From positions 1 through 64,000 of the IMG/VR virus record IMGVR_UViG_3300036770_006434: 64,000 nucleotides of DNA. One strand, 5' to 3'. A program made the translations under genes and the position numbers. How positions within the stretch are numbered: the stretch's first letter is position 1; the number at the start of each line of letters is the position of its first letter. This DNA is from a virus. Positions 12,461 to 52,280 of the stretch are shown piece after piece. The notes beneath the pieces were generated by a model. It saw only the letters and a program-made list of their open reading frames with translations, was not told the origin of the DNA and did not search any database.

Positions 12461-13465
12461 TCACTTCCGCGCGTCATAGTGCAGGTTAATCACCTTGAAC
12501 GACCCGCCGGCATGGTTGATAACGACGCCCTCAAACGGCTGCCCATCAATCGTTTCCAGTTCCTCACTGTAACGCTTGACCAGTTCCGGGGTGAGGATAA
12601 CGTCTTGCTGGATCATCGGGACGGTCGGCAACCCCAGTTGCGGCGCAAGGCGATGAATATACAAGGGGTGCCCCTTGGTGGCGTAACGTCGCTCGTCTAT
12701 CAGCCAAGTAGAGAAAAGGGCGAGCCCAACGGGTAGCTTGCTATGTGGATTGTGAGCCTTCGTCTGGATACCTTGGCCGTATTGCTCGCCGCGGACGCAG
12801 AGGGAGACGCCTTCATTGTCACGGCAAAACCGCTCCAACTTGGCAAGCACTCCATACCGCCGCTCGTTACGGATATAGTGGTTGTCGCTGGTTTCCTTGT
12901 AAAGGAACGAACGACCTCCAACTCCACGGGATACGTCCAAAACACCGGGTGAGACGTGGGATATGGCACAGAAGGCCGAAAATGACTGTCCGTCAATTTT
13001 CAGCGCCACATCCACAGACTGTCCATACGGAAGGTCGTCCACCGACTGCCACCGCTCTTCGTCAGTTTTTGGAATGCCGAATCCATACGGGCCGCTAGCG
13101 CTCAAGTCTTGCGGCGCAGGGGCTTCGTATTTGACAATGCCTAGCACGGCAGTGATGTCCAACCCCGGAGTGAGCGGGCCGGTGTAGCCCACGTTGACAG
13201 GGTCCTCAACAATGCCGAAACTGAAAACGCCGCGTAGCTTGATAGCCTTCACGCGGTTGCTGCGGGCCTTGTAGAATGTAGCCCACGGGGCGTCCGGTAA
13301 CACGCTGTCCGGCTCAATGAAGACGCAGAGGTCTCCGGCGCGCCACTTCCCGCGCGGCACAACGGCTTTGTAGCCCTTGATTTGGGCAATATCCAAAGAG
13401 TCGGCGTTAGGATGGGTGACAACCGACAGGATCGGTTGGATGGAGGCTAGGATAGAGGTGTCCAT
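12461..13465 (-). CDS. RNA ligase, DRB0094/Rnl5-like
   Basis: 334 aa. Nucleotidyltransferase motifs are in order: motif I KIDG with the nucleophile lysine near residue 156, motif III-like RGEQYG near 224, motif IV EGVVI near 311 and motif V SFKVIN near 321. The N-terminal region (HPNADSLDIAQIKGYKAVV, then VFIEPDSVLP) matches the OB-fold module found in front of the ligase domain in the Deinococcus DRB0094 family. The enzyme would seal nicks or breaks in RNA using ATP. With a tRNA block, a cyclic-phosphate receiver domain and a macro-domain protein in the same window, tRNA repair is a reasonable inferred role. Confidence 0.85.
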   Translation of the reverse strand: MDTSILASIQPILSVVTHPNADSLDIAQIKGYKAVVPRGKWRAGDLCVFIEPDSVLPDAPWATFYKARSNRVKAIKLRGVFSFGIVEDPVNVGYTGPLTPGLDITAVLGIVKYEAPAPQDLSASGPYGFGIPKTDEERWQSVDDLPYGQSVDVALKIDGQSFSAFCAISHVSPGVLDVSRGVGGRSFLYKETSDNHYIRNERRYGVLAKLERFCRDNEGVSLCVRGEQYGQGIQTKAHNPHSKLPVGLALFSTWLIDERRYATKGHPLYIHRLAPQLGLPTVPMIQQDVILTPELVKRYSEELETIDGQPFEGVVINHAGGSFKVINLHYDARK

Positions 13466-19032: not shown

Positions 19033-19488
19033 CTAGGCAGCTATCTTTGCGCGCTTCGCCATTCGGTCATAGAGCACGACATTGACGCAAGAAGCCAAAT
19101 TCATGCATACCCTTGTCGGTATCATAACGCGACGCGGACACCATGAAAGAACACGTTCGCCAAGCGTATTATCCTCCGCTCCAAAAACGTAGAATGCTCG
19201 TTCCGGGTGAACGAAATCAACCAAAGATTTGGCGTCCTCAACGAGTTCAACGGCGACCGGGATACAGTCATAGGGAACTACGTCATGAAGGTCATCCACT
19301 TGAAGCATGGGCATATGTCTCCACTGTGCCATGGTGTCGCAAGCATGTTTTTTGTAACGCATACCACTGACGGCAAGCATGGCGGCATCATAACAACCAC
19401 AGGCGCGCAAAACGCCAGCGATATTTGCGGGTGTCTTTGGGTTGTCAAGACCTATTGCGCAATAACCTCTTGAAAAATTGCTTTTCAT
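19033..19488 (-). CDS. SpoU/TrmH-type RNA 2'-O-methyltransferase
   Basis: 151 aa. SPOUT motifs are visible: PKTPANIAGVLRAC (motif 1), YVFGAEDNTLG (motif 2) and IPTRVCMNLASCVNVVLYDR (motif 3, forming the trefoil knot). The length is that of single-domain TrmL/TrmH enzymes. It would methylate a ribose 2'-OH in tRNA or rRNA with AdoMet. The many phage tRNAs in this window make tRNA the likelier substrate (inference). Confidence 0.87.
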   Translation of the reverse strand: MKSNFSRGYCAIGLDNPKTPANIAGVLRACGCYDAAMLAVSGMRYKKHACDTMAQWRHMPMLQVDDLHDVVPYDCIPVAVELVEDAKSLVDFVHPERAFYVFGAEDNTLGERVLSWCPRRVMIPTRVCMNLASCVNVVLYDRMAKRAKIAA

Positions 19489-42039: not shown

Positions 42040-43866
42040 TCACTTCGCTTCAGCATGTTCCATCCCATTCCGCGAGCGCCACTCGTTTCCGAGGTGCAGG
42101 ACTGGCTCCGCTTGGAGGATCGGTTTCCCAACCCATTCTACGGCAGATACCTGTGTGGCGCGAGCGCCTACGGGCAACTGTTCCTGCATTGCCGCGCTCG
42201 CGGCAGATGAAACACTGTTTTCACAATGAATAGACTGAGTCGCCTCAATCCGTTTCTGGTTCACGGGGACACCGCGTGACGAAAGATTTGATTCTTTCGT
42301 CACACACCTGCGTTTGCGGCCTCTCGTGAGTTTCCCCACGACAGACGTTGAACCAGACTTGCTGACCGGGTGCGTCCCGGCCGTTTCCTTATCCGTTTTG
42401 GCGGATTCCGAAATTTGTCGCTCAGTTTTTTGAGCAATTGCCTGCGCGGCCATGTAGTCGCGACCCCAAACGGACCCGCAGCAGGAGCACGTCCACTCTC
42501 GGACCGATGTATCCTTGGGGCCAGTTACGTTCTCGCACTTGATACAGGTGCGGGTCGTATAGGCTTCGTTTACTTGGACCACTGACTTTGGCGTAACACT
42601 GCGTTTGGCAAAATCCTTGAGAATACCCTCGAAGTTGGACACCGCGTTGTCGGCGTCCTTCCTGCGGGCTGCCGCGATTTCGCGCGCAGTCTTTCCGTCG
42701 CGATTCTTTTCGTGTATGGCCGCAAGTTCGCGCCCCTTGCAGTGACCGATTCCAACCGTATCAAACTGGGAAAGGATGCTCCGCGCGGACAGACGGTAAT
42801 GTTCCGTCCTGACGTTGGTCAGCCGACGGGTCATGTCGTTCATTTTACGTCGGGTCTCAATCATGCCCTTCGTCTTTTTCCAGATCAGTTTGACGCCGCG
42901 TTTGATAGACCCTTTTTCGTCGTAATTGGCGGGGTTGTTCTGCCGCATCTGTCGATCCAATTTGCGCTGTAACCGCGCTTGGCGGCGCATAAAGGCGGCG
43001 TTCCTGCAAATCGGTGGCGTCACATTGCCCTGAATCTCGCCGTCTGCCGAGCTGATGGTGATGGCGCTCGTCCGTCCGGGGTCTATGCCGGCGACCGCAC
43101 CGTTGGCGGAAGCGAAATTCTTTTGAGCCACCTCTTCCGGAACGTCCAAAAACAGGGATACGTGATAAACATCGTCCTGAACCGTGACGCCGACCTGCTT
43201 GACAACGGCTTCCTTGGGAACTTCTCGGTGCAATTTGATATCAACTCGGGAGCATGAATCTCCGAACAGGGCCGACAGATTCACTTTGTCCCCACGGATC
43301 AAGTCCAAAGCGTCCAGTCGATTGGCGGCCTGAAGGGTGCAAGAATCGCCAAAACGCTTGAATCGCGGCGCGCCCTTTTTGTTGGATGGATATTGGTCGG
43401 TAGAATCTGCAAACTTCGCCAAGATGGACTGCAAAAACGCGGACCCACCCGAAAAATCTCCCCGTTTGATACCGTTGGAAACCGTCTCCTTGGCATATGT
43501 GAGAGCCAGAGTGCGGATGGAGGCCCGCTTAGCCTTGGTCCCGTCCTTGCGCAAAATGGTATCGGCCTTTTTAAGAATCTTGCCGTTTAATTCCAGAATC
43601 GCTTCTTGGCGACTCTTGCCGGCGGCCAACATGTCGTTCAATATCTTGGCGCGGGCACCGGTATTTTTCTTCTCGGCCAGAATGGATTCAAGGTTTTTGA
43701 CGACTTCGGCCTTGCGACCGTGCGAGCATTCGGATTCCACCCATTTCATTGCGCCGACCAAAGCGTTCCAGACCTTGCGGGATTGGCGCTGGGCATCTCT
43801 GATAGCCGGAATTTGCCCATCATTTGGGTAAATCCTGTATTTGTAGATCAGCGTGGTAAGAGTCAC
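42040..43866 (-). CDS. tnpB: TnpB-like RNA-guided nuclease (Cas12 ancestor family)
   Basis: 608 aa from GTG 43866. N-terminal YKYRIYPNDGQ is the TnpB start. RuvC-I is AGIDPGR (Asp262). The zinc finger is CIKC...CSCC (Cys441, 444, 460, 463) with VNEAYTTRTC before it, and RuvC-III is WGRDYMAAQAI (Asp470). The canonical RuvC-II Glu seems replaced by Gly in VGIGHCKG (about 372-378), as in TnpB/Fanzor clades with a rearranged active site; Glu434 of VNEAYTT is the best substitute. A tail of about 120 residues follows. No TnpA is present. It has the best promoter in the window and a repeat array just downstream. Confidence 0.85.
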   Translation of the reverse strand: MTLTTLIYKYRIYPNDGQIPAIRDAQRQSRKVWNALVGAMKWVESECSHGRKAEVVKNLESILAEKKNTGARAKILNDMLAAGKSRQEAILELNGKILKKADTILRKDGTKAKRASIRTLALTYAKETVSNGIKRGDFSGGSAFLQSILAKFADSTDQYPSNKKGAPRFKRFGDSCTLQAANRLDALDLIRGDKVNLSALFGDSCSRVDIKLHREVPKEAVVKQVGVTVQDDVYHVSLFLDVPEEVAQKNFASANGAVAGIDPGRTSAITISSADGEIQGNVTPPICRNAAFMRRQARLQRKLDRQMRQNNPANYDEKGSIKRGVKLIWKKTKGMIETRRKMNDMTRRLTNVRTEHYRLSARSILSQFDTVGIGHCKGRELAAIHEKNRDGKTAREIAAARRKDADNAVSNFEGILKDFAKRSVTPKSVVQVNEAYTTRTCIKCENVTGPKDTSVREWTCSCCGSVWGRDYMAAQAIAQKTERQISESAKTDKETAGTHPVSKSGSTSVVGKLTRGRKRRCVTKESNLSSRGVPVNQKRIEATQSIHCENSVSSAASAAMQEQLPVGARATQVSAVEWVGKPILQAEPVLHLGNEWRSRNGMEHAEAK

Positions 43867-44189: not shown

Positions 44190-44798
44190 TTACACCAACA
44201 GGAATGGCCGCCAGTCAGGGTGTCTAACCTCCCGAATGGTGACGGAGGCCGGCAGAGCCGGAGGCGCGACTGGTTTGCGAATAAGGGCGAGGCCGACTTC
44301 GTGGTTTAACCTGTTACTCTTCATGGAGTTCAGCTTTTTGTCCGCTACCACCATGTTGCTCCATTCATCCTTGCCGCCTCGGTCCTTGGGAATGACATGG
44401 TCAATATTCAACTGGTGACGCGGCAGTTTACGGCCGGTATACTGACATACGGAATTATCCCGTGCAAATATGGCCCCGGCTGACAGGCGCGGCCTTTTCA
44501 TAGGCATTTCCCCGTAGTTTTTGCTCACGACCACGGTCGGCACCCTGATCATTCTGGTCGCAGTCCTGACGTGAAGGTCTCCCGCGCGGACCGGGAGTTC
44601 GATCCACTCATCCCAACCCACGGGATTCGCGTAAATCAATTCGCCGTTTTCCATCTGGATGTCCAGCGCCAAAACCGGGGGCTCGCCGCCGGACTCGGAG
44701 CACAGAGAGGTGATGGCGGATTTCACGGTTTTTACGGAAATCGGCTGCCACTTGGAGTTCAGGCAGAGGGTTAGATGGGAGTCTAGGATGTGTGACAC
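44190..44798 (-). CDS. HNH endonuclease
   Basis: 202 aa from GTG 44798. LTLCLNSKWQPISVKTVKSAI start, FARDNSVCQYTGRKL, then NIDHVIPKDRGGKDEWSNMV, the HNH core of the RHH/HNH family common in cyanobacterial and phage genomes. The zinc cysteines are partly lost (CQYTG and KLNSMKSNR). Likely a free-standing homing or DNA-processing nuclease. Confidence 0.82.
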   Translation of the reverse strand: MSHILDSHLTLCLNSKWQPISVKTVKSAITSLCSESGGEPPVLALDIQMENGELIYANPVGWDEWIELPVRAGDLHVRTATRMIRVPTVVVSKNYGEMPMKRPRLSAGAIFARDNSVCQYTGRKLPRHQLNIDHVIPKDRGGKDEWSNMVVADKKLNSMKSNRLNHEVGLALIRKPVAPPALPASVTIREVRHPDWRPFLLV

Positions 44799-44859: not shown

Positions 44860-44949
44860 CGGTGAGCTAAGGTATCGCGCCCTAGGGCCAGAGTTACTGT
44901 CCCCCACGAAGGTTCAAACTTCGGTCAATGCTTCATTGATTAACTCACC
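44860..44949 (-). tRNA. tRNA-Ser (UGA)
   Basis: Acceptor GGTGAGT/GCTCACC with discriminator G. Anticodon arm CGAAG/CTTCG with loop TTTGAAC. Long variable arm as expected for Ser. T loop CGCGATA, not TTC. D arm TCAATG/CATTGA with a 3-nt loop and no GG. CCA not encoded. Confidence 0.75.
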
Positions 44950-44955
44950 ATAAAA

Positions 44956-45035
44956 TGGCGCAAGCGAGAGGGAATGATCCTCCATGTATCCAGTTACCCT
45001 TTCTGCGGTTTAGGAAACCGAGGGGATACGCCTGC
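44956..45035 (-). tRNA. tRNA-Arg-like (CCU), D arm atypical
   Basis: Acceptor GCAGGCG/CGCTTGC, then GCCA. CGGT/ACCG stem with loop TTCCTAA gives CCU. T arm GGAGG/CCTCT with loop ATCATTC. There is no room for a normal D arm, and an alternative GTATCC/GGATAC pairing encloses the middle. Confidence 0.5.
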
Positions 45036-45045
45036 GTAAGATTGT

Positions 45046-45546
45046 CTACCGATGTGCCGCGAACCAAGCATCTCTCTCCGGCGCTCGTCGCCCGGTTTCG
45101 GCGCTCACGAAGGTTTCCATCTCCCCGTCGCGCCCCATGATGGCGTCTGCATGTTTGATCATCAGCTGGTTGGGGCACACGAACGGGCCGCGCACAGAGA
45201 CGATTAACTGATAGGCATCGGCATACGATATACCATGCCAAACTAGCCAGATAAAGGCGGCGGCGCTGGAGCGGGAAACGCCGGCAAAGCAATGGAAGAG
45301 GATACGATGATTGAGCGCAGTCTGGGCGTAGATTCCCAGTAGCCGGCGCATGGTATCCTCCGTGACCGCCTGTTTATTCGCGGGGTCTCCGGTATCGTCA
45401 AATACGAAGCTGTGCAAAGCGAAGTCCCCTTTGAAAGCGCGAATATCCGGCGCGGGCTGCCGAGAGTCGCGGATAGAGATGATGTGGTCTAGGGGAGTGG
45501 CAGCGAAGGATGGGACCTCGTGGACGCCGCAGATGAAAAGGGGCAT
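45046..45546 (-). CDS. Dual-specificity phosphatase-like protein
   Basis: 166 aa. Signature HCFAGVSRSSAAAF with catalytic Cys86 and Arg92 in the CX5R loop. The preceding Asp-bearing loop (FDDTGDPANKQ) may supply the general acid. The length fits a minimal DSP or tyrosine-phosphatase domain. It may dephosphorylate host proteins or RNA 5' ends (RNA triphosphatase-type activity occurs in this family). Confidence 0.82.
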   Translation of the reverse strand: MPLFICGVHEVPSFAATPLDHIISIRDSRQPAPDIRAFKGDFALHSFVFDDTGDPANKQAVTEDTMRRLLGIYAQTALNHRILFHCFAGVSRSSAAAFIWLVWHGISYADAYQLIVSVRGPFVCPNQLMIKHADAIMGRDGEMETFVSAETGRRAPERDAWFAAHR

Positions 45547-45549
45547 GTT

Positions 45550-45774
45550 TTAAGGCTTTTTCTTGCGAAAAGGTCTCCAACCAAAACTTATACCAAAGTT
45601 GCGATATTGACGGCCAAAAATGTCATATTTGCTTCTGACAAAAGAAAATTCGGGTTTATACCAAAGAAAATATAGCCATTTTTGTCTAACCCAATCAGAA
45701 AATTGGCGTTTATATCCGGGTGGATAGACCGAAAGCCAAATTTGAATACGTGTTTTTAACGATAATTTTTTCAT
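45550..45774 (-). CDS. Small basic aromatic protein, 74 aa
   Basis: Rich in Tyr, Trp, Phe, Lys, Arg (WVRQKWLYFLWYKPEF). Starts 6 bp after the tRNA-Arg gene. Lower GC than neighbours. Unknown. Confidence 0.5.
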   Translation of the reverse strand: MKKLSLKTRIQIWLSVYPPGYKRQFSDWVRQKWLYFLWYKPEFSFVRSKYDIFGRQYRNFGISFGWRPFRKKKP

Positions 45775-45779
45775 AAAAT

Positions 45780-45867
45780 TGGCACGAGCGGAGGGATGTG
45801 CGCCCCCGAGGCAGCTTACGCTGCGGCACGTTAGAACCGTGGTTGGCCTTCTGACGCCGACGCTCGC
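45780..45867 (-). tRNA. tRNA-Arg (UCU) with long variable arm
   Basis: Acceptor GCGAGCG/CGCTCGT plus GCCA. Anticodon stem CACG/CGTG with loop GTTCTAA (UCU). Variable arm CAGC-GTAA-GCTG, a GNRA-capped hairpin, although Arg tRNAs normally have a short variable loop. T stem GGGGG/CCCTC, loop CGCACAT. Confidence 0.7.
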
Positions 45868-45872
45868 AAAAA

Positions 45873-45952
45873 TGGCACGCCCGGGAGGACTCGGACCTCC
45901 GACCTTCTGATCCGTATTCAGACGCTCTGGAATCCAACTGAGCTACGGGCGC
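45873..45952 (-). tRNA. tRNA-Arg (ACG)
   Basis: Acceptor GCGCCCG/CGGGCGT plus GCCA. D arm GCTC/GAGC. Anticodon arm TCTGA/TCAGA, loop ATACGGA. T arm GGAGG/CCTCC, loop TCCGAGT. Confidence 0.88.
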
Positions 45953-46058
45953 GTAAAGTGAAAATTTCCAACGAGATACCAGAGCCAACGCCGGGACGGC
46001 GCGGCTCATCATAACTGATCGGCAAAACCTCCAAACCCAAGAAGGAGAGGAGGTCTTC

Positions 46059-46433
46059 ATGTCTACGCCGCCCGGTATGGAATACGTAAAACTGTGGATG
46101 CAGCAGAGTGCGCTATTCTGGTCTCGGCTTCAAAGTGCCACACTACTGCATACGGGGGTTCTCGCCGCGTGGTATCAAATGGGGCCGACTCACCCGCAAT
46201 TGCGTCTTGGTGTGCTATGCATGGGTGTCGCCATATCGGGGCTTCTCATAGCTATTATGGTTCGTGACGGGCAATATATGGATGCTATGAGAGATAAGGC
46301 TACCTCGGACCATTTCCCCGCGACCGGAAAGGACGCTCCGAGTGGCAGGATGTGCGGATATTTTATCGTGGCGATACCGATGTTGGCCGAGATGACGCTG
46401 GCTTTTAATCAGGTTTGCACATGTCTGAAATGA
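46059..46433 (+). CDS. Plus-strand membrane protein with strong SD, 124 aa
   Basis: ATG 46059, preceded by AAGGAGAGGAGG, the only obvious Shine-Dalgarno I found. Membrane segments: LGVLCMGVAISGLLIAIMV and GYFIVAIPMLAEMTLAF, with an aromatic amphipathic N-terminus. Opposite strand to almost all other genes. Possibly of separate origin. Confidence 0.7.
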   Translation: MSTPPGMEYVKLWMQQSALFWSRLQSATLLHTGVLAAWYQMGPTHPQLRLGVLCMGVAISGLLIAIMVRDGQYMDAMRDKATSDHFPATGKDAPSGRMCGYFIVAIPMLAEMTLAFNQVCTCLK

Positions 46434-46668
46434 TACCCCTCCATCCAGACGGTGGTCCAAAAGCTATTCGTGTCAGAAGAAGCGATCCCGCCACGAACAG
46501 CATAAGAAAAGAAAAGCAGCCGATCCAGCCGCCAGAGCCAACGCTGGGATTTGCCGTTTTCGCGACTTCACAGGCACAGGTGACGGGTTCGGCAATTTGC
46601 CCAGCGTGGCTCATCTGGGACGTTGTGAGAAAGCAGAAAAGAGCTGCGAAGATAATGGTTTTGATCAT
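46405..46668 (-). CDS. Signal-peptide TM protein, 87 aa
   Basis: Start ATG 46668 (MIKTIIFAALFCFLTTSQMSH, a signal peptide), then Cys-containing linker and a C-terminal membrane helix (FSFLMLFVAGSLLLTRI). Its promoter ends 7 bp upstream. Its end overlaps the plus-strand gene by 29 bp. Could be a spanin-like or envelope protein; unproven. Confidence 0.65.
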   Translation of the reverse strand: MIKTIIFAALFCFLTTSQMSHAGQIAEPVTCACEVAKTANPSVGSGGWIGCFSFLMLFVAGSLLLTRIAFGPPSGWRGIISDMCKPD

Positions 46669-46675
46669 GAGAAGC

Positions 46676-46704
46676 AGTATGGTCAGGTTTGCCCACTTTG
46701 TCAA
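46676..46704 (-). promoter_or_regulatory. Promoter for the gene starting at 46668
   Basis: TTGACA (46699-46704), 17-bp spacer, CATACT (46676-46681), 7 bp to the ATG. Confidence 0.75.
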
Positions 46705-46716
46705 GCGCAAATCAAA

Positions 46717-46743
46717 GGTGCAGCTACACATCAAAGCTGCACC
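46717..46743. other. Perfect 9-bp hairpin
   Basis: GGTGCAGCT/AGCTGCACC with a 9-nt loop, between the tRNA-like block and the 46668 gene promoter. Only short T runs flank it, so it is a weak terminator or a processing element. Confidence 0.5.
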
Positions 46744-46864
46744 TAAAGTCTTCGGCCGGTGTGGAGATTCTGCGCCAAAAAGAGTCTATTCCCATTTAGC
46801 TGCACACTCCGTTTGAGGCCCATTACCCTCCCCGCGTCCCGCTGCGGTCTGCTCCTGCCGAAAG

Positions 46865-46972
46865 TGGAGCCACCGACAGGGGTTAACCCTGTCTCGCAAG
46901 AACACGCGACGGTGTCTGGACGAGGATTCGAGAAACGTGAGACACAAACGAGGTGTCGGGTTTTTCAGTGGC
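46865..46972 (-). ncRNA. CCA-ended tRNA-like RNA, 108 nt
   Basis: Acceptor GCCACTG/CGGTGGC followed by TCCA. T-arm-like stem ACAGG/CCTGT with loop GTTAACC adjoins it. GACAC/GTGTC with a 7-nt loop CTCGTTT could be an anticodon arm (CGU, Thr), leaving only AAAAACCC for the D arm and a very large variable region with its own TCGC/GCGA hairpin. Confidence 0.5.
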
Positions 46973-46978
46973 ATAAAG

Positions 46979-47142
46979 TGGAGCCCCTAGGTCGGATTCG
47001 GCACCGACGACCTCGCTTGTCGCGCGTCTTCATCGCAGACCCTCAATTGATGAGTCCACTAAGAGACGCACGCTTGGGTGACCAACTGAGAAGCGCGCTC
47101 TCCTGATGACCGATATTTGGTAGGTCCTGAGCTACTGGGGGC
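46979..47142 (-). ncRNA. CCA-ended tRNA-like RNA, 164 nt
   Basis: Begins GCCCCCAGTAGCTCAGG like a tRNA and ends with TAGGGGC plus TCCA. T-arm-like stem GTCGG/CCGAC. The D loop region carries GACC/GGTC, and the middle a strong GCGCG-CTTC / GAAG-A-CGCGC helix. About twice the size of a tRNA. Confidence 0.5.
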
Positions 47143-47148
47143 GTAAAG

Positions 47149-47344
47149 TGGATGTCAGCTCTAGGCGTGCCCCTGATGGCCAGTTATTCCCCGACTTGGG
47201 CCATTCCGCGCGACCGGATTGGAGCCGGTTTCGGTGTTCACCTCTTCAGGTGCAGAACGATATAGTGTCGGGCAAGATGTCTACTGCACAGGGCACAAGG
47301 TTGGATTTCTCCGTCCAGTTGTAGACCCACGCATAGAGCTGACA
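47149..47344 (-). ncRNA. CCA-ended structured RNA, 196 nt
   Basis: A perfect 11-bp terminal helix TGTCAGCTCTA/TAGAGCTGACA followed by TCCA, extended by GCGTG/CACGC. Internal helices include GTCTAC/GTAGAC, CACCT/AGGTG, ACCGG/CCGGT (7-nt loop CTCCAAT, like a Trp anticodon arm) and ATGGCC/GGCCAT. Placed in line between tRNA-like genes with the same short spacers. Confidence 0.55.
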
Positions 47345-47347
47345 AAA

Positions 47348-47423
47348 TGGAGGTCCGTGTCGGATTTTAACCGACGAATAACGCATTACAAAGGCGTTCC
47401 TGTAAACACTGAGGCAACGGACC
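47348..47423 (-). tRNA. tRNA-Thr (UGU)
   Basis: Acceptor GGTCCGT/ACGGACC plus TCCA. Anticodon loop TTTGTAA. T arm GTCGG/CCGAC with loop TTAAAAT. D loop lacks GG. Confidence 0.85.
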
Positions 47424-47861
47424 GAAAACTGGCAGGCCCGTTCACTTGCCAGACACTTTGGAGGTGCCGGCGTCACTGTTTCGCTTCTAGTCGCACACGG
47501 GCCAAGGTGCGTGGCGATTGACAGTAATCTTACATTTAATCTTTACAATGAGACGGCTCAGGTGGTGCCTGCCTTATCAATGCAGTCCATTCCAGCTTTC
47601 ACGCTGGGCAATCCCTTGTCGGGGCCTTGTGCGTGCGTCTCAAATTGGTGGGGCCTGCCGCACCGGTAGGGTGCAACTATCGGAGGGTCCCACTCCGTGA
47701 TGCTGTTTCAGGTCGCTTATCCATTCCCTAACGATGGCCTAGCCAAAACTATACTTCGCTATCTCGGCTCTGGTTCAGGATACCCTCAATGACAGTAAAA
47801 GTGAATAAAGCGGAACTGCACGGTAAATGCGCGCTGTGTATCGTGCTTGACGTGTGTAGAA
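47424..47861. other. Gene-free stretch within the tRNA block
   Basis: Holds no convincing CDS. A tRNA-like unit may span 47430-47503 (GGCCCGT/ACGGGCC ends and a terminal TGG on the plus strand), and a 46-nt CCA-ended minihelix-like element lies near 47625-47690 (GTGGG/CCCAC, GCACC/GGTGC). Neither folds into a standard tRNA. Confidence 0.4.
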
Positions 47862-47939
47862 TGGTGCCCACGGTGTTGGTTGCAAACACACTGTGCGGAT
47901 TTTGAATCGTCGCCGCCTCTCCTCTTGGGCTACGTGGGC
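47862..47939 (-). tRNA. tRNA-Leu (CAA), short variable loop
   Basis: Acceptor GCCCACG/CGTGGGC plus ACCA. Anticodon loop TTCAAAA on a stem with a 2-nt bulge. Variable loop ACAGT only, where Leu tRNAs normally have a long arm. T arm GTGTT/AACAC, loop TGCAACC. Confidence 0.75.
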
Positions 47940-47944
47940 AAAAA

Positions 47945-48018
47945 TCGCGATGAGGGTGGTTGCAACCCTACTGACAGAATGTTTAAGATTCCGGCCTCTA
48001 CTCTTGGGCTACATCGCG
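47945..48018 (-). tRNA. tRNA-Leu (UAA), short variable loop
   Basis: Acceptor CGCGATG/CATCGCG, discriminator A, no CCA. Anticodon arm GGAAT/ATTCT, loop CTTAAAC. T arm AGGGT/ACCCT, loop TGCAACC. Six-base variable loop. Confidence 0.75.
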
Positions 48019-48025
48019 GAAAGAT

Positions 48026-48099
48026 TGCCCTCGGCTGTGGTTGCAACAGCACTGTTATCCTCCTAAGGGATACGTCTCCTACTCTTGGACTACGAGGGC
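48026..48099 (-). tRNA. tRNA-Leu (UAG), short variable loop
   Basis: Acceptor GCCCTCG/CGAGGGC, discriminator A, no CCA. Anticodon arm TATCC/GGATA, loop CTTAGGA. Variable loop ACAGT. T arm GCTGT/ACAGC, loop TGCAACC. Confidence 0.78.
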
Positions 48100-48104
48100 G
48101 AAAT

Positions 48105-48180
48105 TGGGGGCTCAGGCGGGATTTTCACCCGCAACCTTCTCCGTATGATGGAGCCGCGCTGGACATTGCGCCACTGAGCC
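48105..48180 (-). tRNA. tRNA-Met/Ile (CAU)
   Basis: Acceptor GGCTCAG/CTGAGCC, then CCCA. D arm GCGC/GCGC. Anticodon loop ATCATAC. T arm GCGGG/CCCGC, loop TGAAAAT. CAU could be Met or, if modified, Ile. Confidence 0.8.
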
Positions 48181-48198
48181 GTGAAAGGAAATTGTCCT

Positions 48199-48438
48199 TC
48201 AATTATATAGCCACACATGGTCCTTAACCTCCCGTGGCATGGGCGCGCTGTCCGGGTCCTCCACCACTGCGCCCAGAGCCCGACGGACCTTGGCTTTGCG
48301 CCCCTTAGAGAGATACTCTTTGGCCGCGCGGCTGGGTTTGTGGTGGGGTTTGCCGTCCATGCGCGCTTCTTGCACCTCTTTGGCGGTTGGCTTGTAGCGA
48401 GAGACATCGAGAGGATCGCGGCGGCGGGTGTTGCTCAT
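48199..48438 (-). CDS. Basic hypothetical protein, 79 aa
   Basis: Very basic (KPHHKPSRAAKEYLSKGRKAKVRRALG) and set within the tRNA block. Possibly RNA binding. Unknown. Confidence 0.65.
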   Translation of the reverse strand: MSNTRRRDPLDVSRYKPTAKEVQEARMDGKPHHKPSRAAKEYLSKGRKAKVRRALGAVVEDPDSAPMPREVKDHVWLYN

Positions 48439-48475
48439 AGGAGTGGGTGATAGGTTTCGGTTAGAGTATAGAGCG

Positions 48476-48751
48476 CTAAAACCTGTTTAGTGCGGCCATC
48501 ATTCTCTGGCGCCCCACCGGGTTAGCCGAATGCACGGTAACGCGCGGCGGCGCAAAACCCCTTGTGAGCACCGCTTCCTCCAACCACAGGACAACATCAT
48601 AACCGTCTCCATTACATTCGTCGCCCAGATCGTGGTCGAGGCTCAGGTCGGTAACCTCACCGGTTTGCAACAGGGCGATGGTCTGCTCTGGGGTGTAGGT
48701 TCGGGTCCAGCCGGAAGGGGTGGGGCGGAGGTCATCTAGGTAGACTTTCAT
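48476..48751 (-). CDS. Cyclic-phosphate processing receiver domain (cPRD)
   Basis: 91 aa from ATG 48751. MKVYLDDLRPTPSGW, then TDLSLDHDLGDECNGDGYDV and VTVHSANPVGRQRMM are the signature of the cPRD receiver-like family, predicted to act on cyclic phosphate ends of RNA or nucleotides and found with RNA ligases and repair kinases. It sits between tRNA genes, consistent with end-healing of cleaved tRNAs (inference). Confidence 0.8.
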   Translation of the reverse strand: MKVYLDDLRPTPSGWTRTYTPEQTIALLQTGEVTDLSLDHDLGDECNGDGYDVVLWLEEAVLTRGFAPPRVTVHSANPVGRQRMMAALNRF

Positions 48752-48764
48752 TGAGGTGGAGTAG

Positions 48765-48793
48765 GTTAAAGGCTGGCCGCGCCAGTGTGTCAA
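48765..48793 (-). promoter_or_regulatory. Promoter of the cPRD gene
   Basis: TTGACA (48788-48793), 17-bp spacer, TTTAAC (48765-48770), 13 bp to the ATG. Confidence 0.65.
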
Positions 48794-48841
48794 GCACTGA
48801 CGGGGCCGAAAACTCACTGTGCGCGTGGAACAGGAGCTAAG

Positions 48842-48928
48842 TGGCTGGGGCGGCAGGATTTTAACCTGCAAGTCTTTTCAGACGGTAGGTTCAAAGCCTA
48901 CTGCGTTTAACGGTTCCGCCACGCCCCA
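48842..48928 (-). tRNA. tRNA-Gln (UUG) with long variable arm
   Basis: Acceptor TGGGGCG/CGCCCCA plus GCCA, with the U1-A72 and G73 features of Gln. Anticodon arm GTAGG/CCTAC, loop CTTTGAA. Variable arm GTCT-GAAA-AGAC, a GNRA hairpin not expected in Gln. T arm GCAGG/CCTGC, loop TTAAAAT. Confidence 0.82.
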
Positions 48929-49080
48929 GTGAATTTACCACAAATCCCTTTAGCTCGGTTTCGCACTTGGACGCGAGACTAGACCGACTCGCCCTTACGC
49001 GCCACGGGAGGGGATCAACATAGCGGGGTTAGCCGCTGTGGTAAAGATGGCCAAGGCCCAGTCCATCAGTATTGCGCTAT

Positions 49081-49154
49081 GCGCGAGCGGGAGTCGAACC
49101 CGTCCGCTAGGGGACTTGCACCCCGCTGCATGATGGAACGAGACCGTCTCGTCC
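49081..49154 (-). tRNA. tRNA-Cys-like (GCA), degenerate acceptor
   Basis: Anticodon region GCGGG-GTGCAAG-TCCCC resembles tRNA-Cys, T loop TTCGACT is canonical. The acceptor GGACGAG/CTCGCGC has two mismatches and no CCA. Probably a decaying gene, as a better tRNA-Cys lies at 51941. Confidence 0.45.
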
Positions 49155-49161
49155 TTGAAAT

Positions 49162-49254
49162 TGGCTGCTCCGGCAGGGAACGATCCTGCAATATCCTTGT
49201 AAGGGTCTTCTGCTTAACGGGCAGTGGCTTTACGCAGTTTTAAGCTACAGAGCA
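49162..49254 (-). tRNA. tRNA-Asn (GUU) with long variable arm
   Basis: Acceptor TGCTCTG/CGGAGCA plus GCCA. D stem GCTT/AAGC. Anticodon stem CTGC/GCAG, loop CCGTTAA (C33). Variable arm of about 19 nt with CCT/AGG pairing. T arm GCAGG/CCTGC, loop ATCGTTC. Confidence 0.68.
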
Positions 49255-49260
49255 ATGAAA

Positions 49261-49338
49261 TGGTGCGCGCTAGAGGACTCGAACCTCTGATGATGCCGAC
49301 GTGTAGGGTCGGAGCAGTCGCCGCTGTGCCAAGCGCGC
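49261..49338 (-). tRNA. tRNA-Val (UAC)
   Basis: Acceptor GCGCGCT/AGCGCGC plus ACCA. Anticodon arm CCGAC/GTCGG, loop CCTACAC. Canonical T loop TTCGAGT and a D loop with GG. Confidence 0.88.
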
Positions 49339-49387
49339 AAATGAGATTGATTCCGTATCAGGGAGAATCGGCTGTCGTTCTACAAAG

Positions 49388-49468
49388 TGGCGATTACGAC
49401 GGGGCTCGCACCCGCTACATAACGCACGCGTGACAGGCGTGGGCCTCGGCTTCTTCGGCTTCGTAATC
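49388..49468 (-). tRNA. tRNA-Asp (GUC)
   Basis: Acceptor GATTACG/CGTAATC plus GCCA. Anticodon arm CACGC/GCGTG, loop CTGTCAC. T arm GCGGG/CCCGT, loop TGCGAGC. D stem GCC/GGC without GG in the loop. Confidence 0.85.
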
Positions 49469-49477
49469 GTGAAAATA

Positions 49478-49580
49478 AACAGGCGTCCTATCCGTTATGC
49501 CAACGGCCCCAGCTTGCCGTCCCACATGTAGGGTGGCGCGCCTTAATGATGGACTCTGACTGGACTGAGCTAACGCGCCG
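49478..49580 (-). other. tRNA fragments
   Basis: A 5' half-like segment (GGGCCGTTGGCATAACGG) near 49480-49510 and a 44-nt element with GGCGCGT/GCGCGCC ends and only a D-arm-like hairpin near 49537-49580. They look like remnants or minihelices, with no complete cloverleaf. Confidence 0.4.
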
Positions 49581-49591
49581 GAAAACCAAAT

Positions 49592-49822
49592 TTAGCGCCA
49601 ACTCAGTTTGCGCTTTCCGTTTAGCGACGTGATATACAATCGTCCGAACAATCGAACTACCCAACATTCACCTTCTCTGATGTATATCCAATTTTTTAGC
49701 CCCCGTATTACGACCGAATCTCCATCTCGAAGACAGAGCCAGTGACTGAAAAGCATAACAAGGAGGGTATCGTTTTGGGTAAGCCAACAATGGCCGCGTG
49801 GGATGGGAGTATGTATAGACAT
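49592..49822 (-). CDS. Hypothetical aromatic protein, 76 aa
   Basis: Trp/Leu-rich beta-type repeats (CWLTQNDTLLVMLFSHWLCL, then CWVVRLFGRLYITSL). A TATAAT lies 13 bp before the ATG. Sits inside the tRNA block. Unknown. Confidence 0.55.
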   Translation of the reverse strand: MSIHTPIPRGHCWLTQNDTLLVMLFSHWLCLRDGDSVVIRGLKNWIYIREGECWVVRLFGRLYITSLNGKRKLSWR

Positions 49823-49847
49823 AAAATAAATGTGTATTATATTAAGA

Positions 49848-49923
49848 TGGTCAGTCCGGCTGGTATCGCGCCAGCTTAAATCCTAGTCCCAAACTAGGTG
49901 CCTCACTTTTCGGCCACGGACTG
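49848..49923 (-). tRNA. tRNA-Pro (UGG)
   Basis: Acceptor CAGTCCG/CGGACTG plus ACCA, with the C1-G72 pair typical of bacterial Pro. Anticodon arm CCTAG/CTAGG, loop TTTGGGA. T arm GCTGG/CCAGC, loop CGCGATA. D loop without GG. Confidence 0.88.
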
Positions 49924-50047
49924 TAAAGATTGCCCACCCCGTTGCGCGCGAGGTGGGCTTCTCAAACGCCGCCCAAGGACGAGGAAACAAGATCGTCCTA
50001 CATGGGTTTGTCTCTTGATGACTGGGTGCGTTATATCGAAAGATTGC

Positions 50048-50118
50048 AAGCAGGTTGTGGTATCGCGCCACACGAGCCGCGACCTTATGAGAGTCCGGCG
50101 CACCTTGTGCTACCTGCC
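50048..50118 (-). tRNA. tRNA-Met-like (CAU), second copy
   Basis: Acceptor GGCAGGT/ACCTGCT, no CCA. Compact D arm GCAC/GTGC. Anticodon loop CTCATAA. T arm TGTGG/CCACA, loop CGCGATA. Confidence 0.65.
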
Positions 50119-50399
50119 ATGTAAATTTAGAGGGGAGAGCAGCCCTCGGCATCCCGCGTCCGGTCCGCGCGCCGCTCTCCCCGTTATTGTCTATCTGATG
50201 TTACCGATCCTTGCGGTAGTCATTGTCGAAAATCACGACAATTCCTAGGCAAGCGAACAGGGCTACGAATGCGAGCATTGGTAAGCGCCTTTCTGTCCTT
50301 CGTCTGCGGTCCCGTGGGAGCGCGCAGGGGTTTGCTATATTCCTGATTCCGCACGCTTCAACGGGTGAAACCACCGGCCAAAGTGAGTGTGGGAGGAAA

Positions 50400-50533
50400 T
50401 GGATTTGAGCGGGCTGGGCGCTAAACCAGCTGGGCAGGCCCCACATGCATGGCGACATCGTCTAATGCTGCCGGTTCGATTCGTTCGCCACGCTTCAGGA
50501 CTGTGTGTCTGCTTTCCACACCGCCGCTCAAAT
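50400..50533 (-). ncRNA. Cloverleaf-like RNA, about 134 nt, CCA-ended
   Basis: Terminal helix TTTGAGC-GG/CC-GCTCAAA followed by TCCA. Three arms: GTGTG/CACAC, an extended TGGCGA/TCGCCA arm, and GCTGG/CCAGC next to the terminal helix like a T arm, plus a GGG/CCC hairpin. Same terminal helix as the element at 50924. Confidence 0.5.
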
Positions 50534-50538
50534 TGATC

Positions 50539-50697
50539 CCGGGTTCGTTCGGAGGTTAGAAGACCGTGTTAGCGAAGTTTTTTAACTCTTTCTGTAGCTC
50601 AAGGGACAGAGGATAGTGAGTTAAAGAACAGACTGACTGGTCGGCCGGGGTCGTAACCCGTTTTTATCGCCGACCATTTACCTACGAACGAACCCGG
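50539..50697. ncRNA. Branched RNA closed by a 13-bp perfect helix
   Basis: CCGGGTTCGTTCG (50539-50551) pairs with 50685-50697, extended by AGGT/ACCT. Inside: GGTCGGC/GCCGACC arm enclosing a CGGG/CCCG hairpin, and TTTAACTC/GAGTTAAA enclosing TCTGT/ACAGA. Strand unknown, minus assumed from context. Confidence 0.55.
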
Positions 50698-50923
50698 AAA
50701 AATGTTTTGCCAACCGGGCGGATTGTAGCACTCGGGCACTAGACCCCGGGCCACCTTGAACCGCCTAGTCTATTCGGATCGCGGCCTGATCAGGACTGCC
50801 ACGGCTTCGGGCCGAAGCATCGGACCCACGGAGACTTACTAACGTTGCCAAATGGGGCGTGCCACTGTTGGCGGCACACCTTGTAGCCGGCTGTTATCCC
50901 ACCCGGCGGCGGTTGACAAAAGG

Positions 50924-51078
50924 TTTTGAGCGGTCCCTAAGTTCGGCAAGGGGTCTATGGGTAAGCCCCAGACTTCGACTCCGGTTTGCTACATCCTGCG
51001 TCTTGTGGCCACGCCACGCAGTGTCTCGCCTCTCGGTGGGAATCCTCGGCCGGTCGCTGTGAAAAGCGCCGCTCAAAA
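50924..51078. ncRNA. Structured RNA, 155 nt, same terminal helix as 50400 unit
   Basis: TTTTGAGCGG (50924-50933) pairs perfectly with CCGCTCAAAA (51069-51078), nearly the same 10-bp helix as in the 50400-50533 element. Interior has several GC-rich hairpins. Confidence 0.45.
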
Positions 51079-51139
51079 TGGTGCCCCCTTTTCTCCCTAG
51101 TAACGAGCAGCTGTTCTCGCTGGGAAGAGGGCAAAAATA

Positions 51140-51229
51140 TGGCTAGGACGGTGGGTATCGCGCCCACATCGCGGGTTGCCCCGCTTGCCGGATTTGGAGT
51201 TCGGTGCATTTCTTGTCTGCCACGTCCTA
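51140..51229 (-). tRNA. tRNA-Trp (CCA) with long variable arm
   Basis: Acceptor TAGGACG/CGTCCTA plus GCCA. Anticodon loop CTCCAAA with CCG/CGG stem. Variable arm GCGGG-GCAA-CCCGC, a GNRA hairpin foreign to Trp tRNAs. T arm GTGGG/CCCAC, loop CGCGATA. D loop lacks GG. Confidence 0.82.
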
Positions 51230-51398
51230 ATGAAAATTGATCCCCGCAGCAAGTGTCGCCCAACGGGCTATCCTGCACCGAAGATATCCTACTTTGCAAA
51301 CCTCGGATAAATGGGAGGTTGATTTCGGGCCGTCTTACAGGGAACGGCTGGCTTTGTGTCCGGCATCGTCCTGTAAACGCGCCGTAGTTTGTCCAAGA

Positions 51399-51473
51399 TG
51401 GTGGTCCCAGCAGGATTTTCGCCTGCAACCTGACAGAAATCAACTGTCTACTCTGGATTTGAGCTATGGGACC
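51399..51473 (-). tRNA. tRNA-Ile (GAU)
   Basis: Acceptor GGTCCCA/TGGGACC plus ACCA. Anticodon arm GACAG/CTGTC, loop TTGATTT. T arm GCAGG/CCTGC, loop CGAAAAT. Confidence 0.87.
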
Positions 51474-51544
51474 GTAAATGGCTGGATGGTTCTTTATTCC
51501 TTACGCCTTCCAGTGTGCGGTCCATTTGGAGTAATGGACAAAGT

Positions 51545-51630
51545 GGTGGGCTAGACAGGACTCGCACCTGTGGAGGACCGAAGTCCGGGGCGTTTACAGC
51601 GCCCTGCAATAGCTGCTATGCGACTAACCC
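51545..51630 (-). tRNA. tRNA-Tyr (GUA)
   Basis: Acceptor GGGTTAG/CTAGCCC plus ACCA. Anticodon arm GGGCG/CGCCC, loop CTGTAAA. Normal long variable arm GGAC-TTCG-GTCC. T arm ACAGG/CCTGT, loop TGCGAGT. Confidence 0.88.
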
Positions 51631-51635
51631 GAAGA

Positions 51636-51710
51636 TGGAGCAGTGCAAGGGGGTCGAACCCTCGTGATTCTGATTGGAAATCAGATGCATAACCGTTCTG
51701 CCAACACTGC
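51636..51710 (-). tRNA. tRNA-Gly (UCC)
   Basis: Acceptor GCAGTGT/GCACTGC plus TCCA (U73 as in Gly). Anticodon arm TCTGA/TCAGA, loop TTTCCAA. Canonical T loop TTCGACC and D loop with GG. Confidence 0.9.
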
Positions 51711-51715
51711 GAAAT

Positions 51716-51789
51716 TGGTGGACCGCCACGGTTACTCTCCGTGGACTGTGAGATGCAAACTCACCGTGATGATATTTCACCAGCGGCCC
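51716..51789 (-). tRNA. tRNA-Ala (UGC)
   Basis: Acceptor GGGCCGC/GCGGTCC plus ACCA. Anticodon arm GTGAG/CTCAC, loop TTTGCAT. T arm CACGG/CCGTG, loop AGAGTAA. Confidence 0.85.
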
Positions 51790-51793
51790 AAAA

Positions 51794-51853
51794 TGGCACC
51801 GAGTAGGGTTCTTAACCCGTTCAGCCATGTGCTTTAGACTGTTAGGACTCGGT
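51794..51853 (-). tRNA. Truncated tRNA-like, 60 nt, no D arm
   Basis: Perfect acceptor ACCGAGT/ACTCGGT plus GCCA. A CAGTC/GGCTG stem with a 10-nt loop and a GGG/CCC T-like hairpin follow a 5-nt connector in place of the D arm. Identity unknown. Confidence 0.45.
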
Positions 51854-51940
51854 TTCCTCACGTCCCTTGCGCTTTGCCTTGTCGGCACGCTACCCCGATA
51901 GACGCCTGCTGAGGCACTAAAATCCGGGAGGGGGAAAGGA

Positions 51941-52015
51941 TGGAGACGCGTAGAGGATTTTCGCCTCTGTGGAACAGGATTGCAATCTGTCGCTTAGATA
52001 CTCAGCCAACGCGTC
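51941..52015 (-). tRNA. tRNA-Cys (GCA)
   Basis: Acceptor GACGCGT/ACGCGTC plus TCCA (U73, a Cys identity element). Anticodon loop TTGCAAT. T arm AGAGG/CCTCT, loop CGAAAAT. D loop without GG. Confidence 0.82.
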
Positions 52016-52021
52016 GTAAAG

Positions 52022-52096
52022 TGGTAGTCCCGTCGGGTATCCAGCCCGCTTCATCGGCTTAAAAGGCCGCTGCTCATGCGCTAAAGCTTCGGGACT
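52022..52096 (-). tRNA. tRNA-Lys (UUU)
   Basis: Acceptor AGTCCCG/CGGGACT plus ACCA. Anticodon stem CGGC/GCCG, loop CTTTTAA. T stem CGGG/CCCG, loop CTGGATA. Confidence 0.82.
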
Positions 52097-52102
52097 ATAG
52101 AA

Positions 52103-52200
52103 TGGCGGCTGTGACTCTCCAGCGTTGTCAAGCCTACCCTCCCCAGTTGGAACCGGTTGCGGACTTCAATCCGAGAGCGACTCGGCGTGCGGGCTTTCGC
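52103..52200 (-). ncRNA. CCA-ended tRNA-like segment, possibly Phe (GAA)
   Basis: A CGGA/TCCG stem with loop containing GAA and a 3' GCCA suggest tRNA-Phe, but the acceptor 5' strand cannot be placed. CCGGTT/AACTGG and GGCTTGA/TCA-C-AGCC pairings compete. Kept as uncertain. Confidence 0.3.
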
Positions 52201-52205
52201 AAAAA

Positions 52206-52280
52206 TGGTAGCCTAGGAGGGTGCTACCCCCTCTACTGAAACTTGAAAGGTTTCCGAGATAGTTGATTCTCCACTAGGCC
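52206..52280 (-). tRNA. tRNA-Glu (UUC), first tRNA of the block
   Basis: Acceptor GGCCTAG/CTAGGCT plus ACCA. Anticodon arm GAAAC/GTTTC, loop CTTTCAA. T arm GAGGG/CCCTC, loop GGTAGCA. D stem GAGA/TCTC. Its 5' end lies about 250 bp from a strong promoter. Confidence 0.85.

Follow-up and report, generated by a model that had tools for sequence, protein, structure and literature searches.

The G18G19 letters of the D loop and the ribothymidine-pseudouridine-cytidine (T-Psi-C) sequence of the T loop are regarded as near-universal marks of transfer RNAs (tRNAs), and are built into gene finders; canonical tRNAs combine them as G18:U55 and G19-C56. A tRNA array in the IMG/VR record IMGVR_UViG_3300036770_006434 raises the question of what becomes of the elbow when both marks are missing, as most of its members, despite good acceptor and anticodon stems, have T loops without TTC and D loops without GG. 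The stretch analysed, hereafter the window, comprises bases 1-64000 of this 190,671-base record. Its genes include those of a DnaE-type polymerase, a terminase large subunit and a phage tail-tip protein, and its source is therefore a tailed phage. A first-pass annotation had read the array as a coupled loss of the contact between the D and T loops. Judged from the covariation of the two loops, this contact is not lost but kept by matched partner letters, and we refer to such tRNAs as re-paired.

An array recognised by its stems

The array was located with a scanner of our own, whose score comes from the stems, from U33 and U8 and from the CCA end, positions 32 and 37 and the loop lengths adding small terms; it is blind to the letters of the T and D loops except for one optional D-stem pair. 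Between 45877 and 52280, it returned 18 clear minus-strand tRNAs (scores from 19.5 to 23.5), and weaker candidates on the same strand down to 44861. Nothing on the plus strand of the region scored above 16.5, and the top score in five Markov-shuffled sequences of 8 kb was 16.7. The total reaches 21-23 with the weak Ser (44861) and Arg-TCT (45784) genes, possibly another at 44960, and Leu-CAA (47862-47939), which was added by hand. The earlier count of about 24 is close when weak genes are included, only 18 being clear. ARAGORN reported just nine tRNAs in the window, where at least 20 are present, and Rfam eight at its gathering score.

All 18 clear genes fit a four-stem cloverleaf, with an acceptor stem of 7 bp and anticodon and T stems of 5 bp, and the CCA end is encoded in most members of the array. 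Eighteen amino acids are served, low-score Ser included; no tRNA for Phe or His was found in the window array. Each of the unusual T loops that the first-pass annotation had named (CGCGATA, CGAAAAT, TGCAACC, TGAAAAT, AGAGTAA and GGTAGCA) is confirmed, and sits on an intact T stem. Its remark that Gly and Val retain GG together with TTC also stands; among the clear tRNAs, these two alone have both canonical halves of the elbow (G18G19 and U55C56).

Matched letters across the elbow

When the D loops of the window are set against the T loops, the replaced letters still match each other. Thr and Gln (TTAAAAT) carry G18U19, and Lys (CTGGATA) carries G18C19. The G55C56 tRNAs (Pro, Trp, Tyr, Asp and three Leu) are all A18G19, the G55A56 tRNAs Cys and Ala are A18U19, and Glu (GGTAGCA) is A18A19. 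Three swaps are thus shown by these comparisons of predicted partners: 19:56 stays Watson-Crick while its letters change from G-C to A-U, U-A or C-G, all four forms occurring inside one array; 18:55 is either the G:U known from canonical tRNAs or, as a second and new form, A:G; and 54:58 swaps too, to A-U, G.G or C.A. Leu-CAA, which had been cited as an exception, follows the same rule, its D loop CAAGAGGAGA placing A18 and G19 opposite G55 and C56 of TGCAACC.

A Watson-Crick 19:56 pair is possible in 17 of the 18 clear tRNAs, and the 18:55 rule also holds in 14. With one fixed register, 19:56 pairs in 13/18, and other offsets give 1-7/18. Permuting the T loops among the window tRNAs gave p = 0.0016 for Watson-Crick 19:56 and p < 1e-5 for the joint 18:55 and 19:56 rule; the 18:55 part was derived from the window data itself, and was tested on outside contigs. 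The claim that the two loops change in concert is borne out well beyond chance, and its reading as constraint rather than decay stands. The idea of a coupled loss was abandoned when the 19:56 complementarity emerged, and the likeness drawn to animal mitochondrial tRNAs devoid of D/T contact fails with it, because the 19:56 pair and the 18:55 contact are maintained.

The outside contigs were fetched by T-arm patterns. A Trp tRNA pattern with G55 gave 41 stretches, mostly chance matches (40 of 41), among which one further re-paired tRNA (L181) was recognised. A viral contig of 161 kb met by luck (L156) has G55C56 in two of its 20 tRNA-like genes; these two and the L181 tRNA, the first independent cases, are all A18G19. 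The patterns G55C56 and U55A56 returned 22 and 94 tRNAs, with D loops mostly AG and GT, respectively, as expected, and A18:G55 and U19-A56 are the dominant states among the pattern-matched viral tRNAs. Two further pairings, G56 with C19 and U56 with A19, were set down before looking; a few G56 and U56 cases were known from the earlier survey, so the predictions concern new contigs rather than unseen classes. G56 was paired with C19 in 48/56 tRNAs and U56 with A19 in 68/71, and several of the eight G56 misses are G18U19, i.e. a U19.G56 wobble.

Across 285 distinct non-canonical viral tRNAs (collapsed by anticodon and loops), 19:56 is Watson-Crick in 276 (permutation mean 167, maximum 190), and the joint rule holds in 259 (mean 112, maximum 134). 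When T arms used as search patterns are left aside, the figures are 214/219 for 19:56 and 198/219 for the joint rule. Half-changed elbows are rare: GG is absent in nine of 588 U55C56 tRNAs, and unchanged opposite ten of the 285 non-canonical T loops. The D-loop register has some freedom, which was controlled by permutation and by a single-register subset with 9-nt loops (n = 75; 53 AG opposite GC, 14 GA opposite UU). A gap-free alignment of 67 tRNAs of equal length has 97.4% of its cells paired, and pairs 19:56 in 97% (GC 54, AU 8, CG 2, UA 1); no row carries a one-sided 19:56 change that still pairs, and none of 500 shuffles reached the observed level. Position 54:58 in this alignment is U-A in 36 rows, A-U in 22 and otherwise in nine. 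Taken together, the survey shows that the predicted pairing recurs across many other viral contigs and can be foretold before the loops are read. As a separate observation, where 54:58 is not U-A in the viral survey, position 60 is usually A where a pyrimidine would be expected, a hint that the T-loop fold changes along with it.

Outside the elbow, the tRNA is shown to be kept at the sequence level, including the signals for the aminoacyl-tRNA synthetases. Identity elements are retained in re-paired viral tRNAs about equally to canonical ones, namely Ala G3:U70 (16/16), Cys U73 (16/16), Asp G73 (18/18), Ile A73 (21/21) and Pro C1:G72 (13/14). U33 (0.92), G53:C61 (0.96) and purine 57 (0.99) are, like the pyrimidine at 32 and the purine at 37, nearly equal in the two groups; U54 falls to 0.69, A58 to 0.73, and the 15:48 pair of the G55 class to 0.35. 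The retention of U33, purine 57, G53:C61 and the identity elements makes the re-paired tRNAs look functional.

Relatives, cells and the surroundings of the array

The relative G689 is a phage of 202,882 bases, whose DnaE is 45% identical to that of the window. It has at least 39 tRNAs, of which 30 follow the full rule and four more the 19:56 part alone, very few being canonical. Random decay of the loops was not what this relative displayed: its changes are compensated. tRNAs of the same anticodon are only 52-68% identical between the two phages, and their solutions often differ. Gly-TCC is canonical in the window phage and A18:G55 in G689; Pro-TGG combines A18:G55 with G19-C56 in the window, and G18:U55 with U19-A56 in one of two G689 copies. 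We read these differences as repeated compensated change, to which replacement through acquired tRNA genes could contribute. G689 also holds a second class of odd T loops (L605 and L604; 122839, 123235, 124220, 125568 and 126190), ending in CAA or CAG and mostly with C58 (CTCCCAA, CAGTCAA, TCCCCAA, TCGTCAA and GTGCCAG), in Ile, Lys, Gln and Phe tRNAs; their D loops are, for instance, CAAATG..AAG, and 19:56 pairs in most.

Used as a lone query, DnaE found no relative in IMG/VR, and the terminase relatives (51-59% identity) lie on short contigs on which no tRNA was found. Among the cousins at about 40% with tRNAs, the two scanned (G005 and G004) are canonical in both loops, and the remainder, compared at the level of the whole model, give strong matches to the canonical one. 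Compared with the phage collection, the array itself matched nothing closely at the DNA level except for the near-canonical tRNA-Arg.

Among the matches listed for the U55A56 pattern in bacterial and archaeal genomes, 119 loci included 49 tRNAs, of which most are tRNA-Arg carrying G18U19; among those listed for viral contigs, 93 of 120 loci had a tRNA, and many isotypes were represented. For the G55 pattern, about 600 genomes from two sampled phyla gave, again among the matches listed, mostly transfer-messenger RNA (tmRNA) ends or chance hits and a handful of tRNAs. Re-paired tRNAs thus appear to be rare in cells, apart from tRNA-Arg with U19-A56; they appear not to be exclusive to phages, yet far more varied there. 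The cellular tRNA-Arg (TCG, CCG, CCT) recurs in Clostridia and Bacteroidota (L425, L432, L434, L454 and similar loci) and shares one phage solution, G18U19 with U55A56, but as one isotype in an ordinary tRNA set, whereas the phages have many isotypes and several solutions. Also seen were tmRNA-like 3' ends of Bacillota and Pseudomonadota (L545-L551, L559, L560, L564-L571), whose T loops (TGCAAGT, TGCAAAT, TGCGATT) share G55 with the re-paired phage tRNAs.

With the canonical class I/II elongator tRNAs of RF00005, the phage tRNAs share the cloverleaf stems, a 7-nt T loop, purine 57, G53:C61, U33, the synthetase identity elements, the CCA end and a Watson-Crick 19:56. They differ by matched substitutes for G18G19 and U54U55C56, 18:55 being often A:G and 54:58 also A-U, G.G or C.A. 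Bilaterian mitochondrial type II tRNAs likewise lack the GG and T-Psi-C motifs, but have no D/T-loop contact (PMC7609411), whereas the phage tRNAs keep it through paired changes; mitochondrial tRNA-Ala has lost G3:U70 (PMC7033119), and the phage tRNAs retain synthetase identity. Archaeal and bacterial tRNA-Pyl, too, has neither GG nor T-Psi-C and joins its D and T loops by a different contact (PMC7609411), but it is one isolated oddity whose D loop is very small, in contrast to the normal-length D loops and many isotypes of the phages. The phage tRNAs of van den Berg et al. 2023 escape anticodon nucleases (PMC10264068). Sites readable by tRNases are altered in both systems, in the anticodon loop there and in the elbow, compensated on both sides, here. 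In line with the first-pass annotation, the literature searched describes no change of elbow letters in phages and no compensated phage tRNA elbow; subscription papers and preprints lay mostly outside this search, and an earlier description is possible.

tRNA genes of the window array, with D loops, T loops and predicted elbow pairs
tRNA	Position	Strand	D loop	T loop	Elbow	Remarks
Glu(TTC)	52206..52280	-	AATCAACTAT	GGTAGCA	A18:G55, A19-U56	54:58 G.G
Lys(TTT)	52022..52096	-	TTAGCGCATG	CTGGATA	G18:U55, C19-G56	
Cys(GCA)	51941..52015	-	GAGTATCTA	CGAAAAT	A18:G55, U19-A56	U73 retained
Ala(TGC)	51716..51789	-	AAATATCAT	AGAGTAA	A18:G55, U19-A56	54:58 A-U; G3:U70 retained
Gly(TCC)	51636..51710	-			canonical, GG/TTC	
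Tyr(GTA)	51544..51630	-	TAGCAGCTAT	TGCGAGT	A18:G55, G19-C56	long variable arm
Ile(GAT)	51399..51473	-	CAAATCCAG	CGAAAAT	A18:G55, U19-A56	only if D loop one base shorter
Trp(CCA)	51140..51229	-	GACAAGAAA	CGCGATA	A18:G55, G19-C56	
Pro(TGG)	49848..49923	-	GAAAAGTGA	CGCGATA	A18:G55, G19-C56	C1:G72 retained
Asp(GTC)	49388..49468	-	GAAGAAGCCGA	TGCGAGC	A18:G55, G19-C56	
Val(TAC)	49261..49338	-			canonical, GG/TTC	
Asn(GTT)	49162..49254	-	TAAAACTGCGTAA	ATCGTTC	G19-C56 possible	no GG; 54:58 A-U
Gln(TTG)	48842..48928	-	GAACCGTTAAA	TTAAAAT	G18:U55, U19-A56	U1:A72 retained
Met/Ile2(CAT)	48105..48180	-	CAATGTCCAG	TGAAAAT	18:55 G.G, U19-A56	
Leu(TAG)	48026..48099	-	CAAGAGTAGGA	TGCAACC	A18:G55, G19-C56	CCA not encoded
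Leu(TAA)	47945..48018	-	CAAGAGTAGA	TGCAACC	A18:G55, G19-C56	CCA not encoded
Leu(CAA)	47862..47939	-	CAAGAGGAGA	TGCAACC	A18:G55, G19-C56	anticodon stem imperfect
Thr(TGT)	47348..47423	-	CAGTGTTTAC	TTAAAAT	G18:U55, U19-A56	
Arg(ACG)	45873..45952	-	with GG	TCCGAGT	nearly canonical	one letter off
Probable Arg(TCT)	45780..45867	-	GTCAGAAGG	CGCACAT	AG opposite GC	shifted register only; low score
Probable Ser(TGA)	44860..44949	-	AATGAAGCAT	CGCGATA	A18:G55, G19-C56	low score

Other features were noticed in and around the array. A possible Ser-like tRNA of 108 nt (46865-46972, minus strand) has the T loop GTTAACC and long insertions, and nested inverted repeats with tRNA-like ends (ATTTGAGCGG, GGTTCGTTCGGAGG) lie between tRNA genes at 50400-51080. 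Distant from the array, at 187778-187877 of the record (L001), stands a lone tRNA with canonical GG and TTC, the probable anticodon TAT and an unusually long region between anticodon and T arm. The left end of the array is adjoined by genes for a TnpB-family RNA-guided nuclease (42040-43866) and an HNH endonuclease (44190-44798). Further away in the window are a DRB0094/Rnl5-like RNA ligase gene (12461-13465), possibly for phage RNA repair, and a gene for a SpoU-family methylase of 151 residues (19033-19488), weakly TrmL-like and possibly involved in RNA modification. The RNA ligase is no common marker of re-paired phages, as eight of 25 records have one, many of the records being fragments. 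In locus L009 (12415-14166, minus strand), a thymidylate synthase gene is split by an intein-like HNH-endonuclease segment.

What a re-paired elbow may offer

The phage probably carries a near-complete set of working tRNAs with a re-paired elbow, in which the shape is kept and the sequence hidden. The 19:56 pair is a flat, exposed pair that serves as a stacking surface for RNase P and the L1 stalk, and nucleotide 18 intercalates into the T loop (PMC4810234). Any Watson-Crick 19:56 would preserve this flat terminal face. Readers of shape and stacking, such as RNase P, the ribosomal A-site finger and the L1 stalk, should then still accept re-paired tRNAs, because 19:56 is still a flat terminal pair and 57 remains a purine. 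Host enzymes that read the elbow by its letters would miss them. Candidates are TruB, TrmA, which acts at U54, and tRNA nucleases whose cleavage or docking site is T-Psi. The TruB substrate motif is GUUYRANYC (PMC7912444), and G55 loops are without it. The T-loop tRNase CdiA-CT E479 cleaves between T and Psi (PMC9086364), and defences that cut tRNAs can be overcome by tRNAs encoded in the phage (PMC11555353). The gain that we favour, with less certainty than the re-pairing itself, may be invisibility to such enzymes, which could let the phage sustain its protein synthesis as the tRNAs of the host are cleaved or run short; this step from hidden sequence to benefit is one that we infer. In its widest form, which we offer tentatively, the proposal is that the set is disguised at the elbow from every sequence-reading host enzyme, including a hypothetical elbow-directed anti-phage nuclease, and still used by the shape readers, and that a small pairing code (19:56 any Watson-Crick; 18:55 G:U or A:G; 54:58 U-A, A-U, G.G or C.A) would cover all working elbows.

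Several points weigh against a disguise. E479 is a toxin of contact-dependent inhibition rather than a phage defence, and an elbow-reading nuclease acting on these phages would be hypothetical. Under a blanket disguise, one would not expect Gly, Val and, nearly, Arg-ACG to be canonical within this array, and U19-A56 is shared with a cellular tRNA-Arg and therefore not confined to phages. Ile 51403 and several G689 tRNAs fit the rule only when the D-loop register is shifted, or not at all; the putative A18:G55 contact is read from covariation; and class frequencies in the survey differ from population frequencies because the contigs were chosen by T-arm patterns.

The main and serious rival to an escape from sequence readers is neutral compensatory drift, in which only the elbow shape is needed and linked double changes pile up without any gain from hiding; a sizeable minority of the probability belongs to it. 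A19-U56, to which a G.U intermediate can lead, is the most frequent change of the U55 class (35, against 12 U-A and five C-G, search patterns removed), lone re-paired tRNAs stand within otherwise canonical arrays (L156), and the 15:48 pair is looser as well in the G55 class. Yet the changes cluster in the elbow (54-56, 58, 60 and 18-19), with U33, G53:C61, purine 57 and synthetase identity kept, the commonest form, A18:G55, requires a transversion and a second change, and nearly all G689 tRNAs are affected.

Independence from elbow modification is unlikely: pseudouridine 55 and 5-methyluridine 54 would be disturbed in infection or missing in the hosts, and a re-paired elbow would be stable unmodified. 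It would suit the loss of the TruB motif (PMC7912444), as G55 cannot turn into pseudouridine nor a non-U54 into ribothymidine, and the SpoU-type methylase gene (19033-19488) suggests that the phage itself acts on RNA modification. However, the classes U19-A56, A19-U56 and C19-G56 retain U54 and U55, which does not fit, and the SpoU protein is weakly TrmL-like. That the tRNAs work without D/T contact like bilaterian mitochondrial ones, as first proposed, is very improbable: most of the array does lack GG and TTC, but 19:56 complementarity lies far above chance, the predictions made from it held, and the covariation contradicts a lost elbow. Decaying pseudogenes or assembly noise, which might explain why standard finders miss over half of the array, are hardly conceivable given the intact stems, encoded CCA, kept identity, compensated changes and recurrence in unrelated contigs.

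For phage biology, the array means that tRNA sets are under-counted, as ARAGORN's nine in the window illustrate. The finding also hints that there may be enzymes or defences for which the elbow sequence is the signal. With hundreds of natural compensated elbows at hand, whether the elbow is read by its letters or only by its shape becomes testable with existing molecules.

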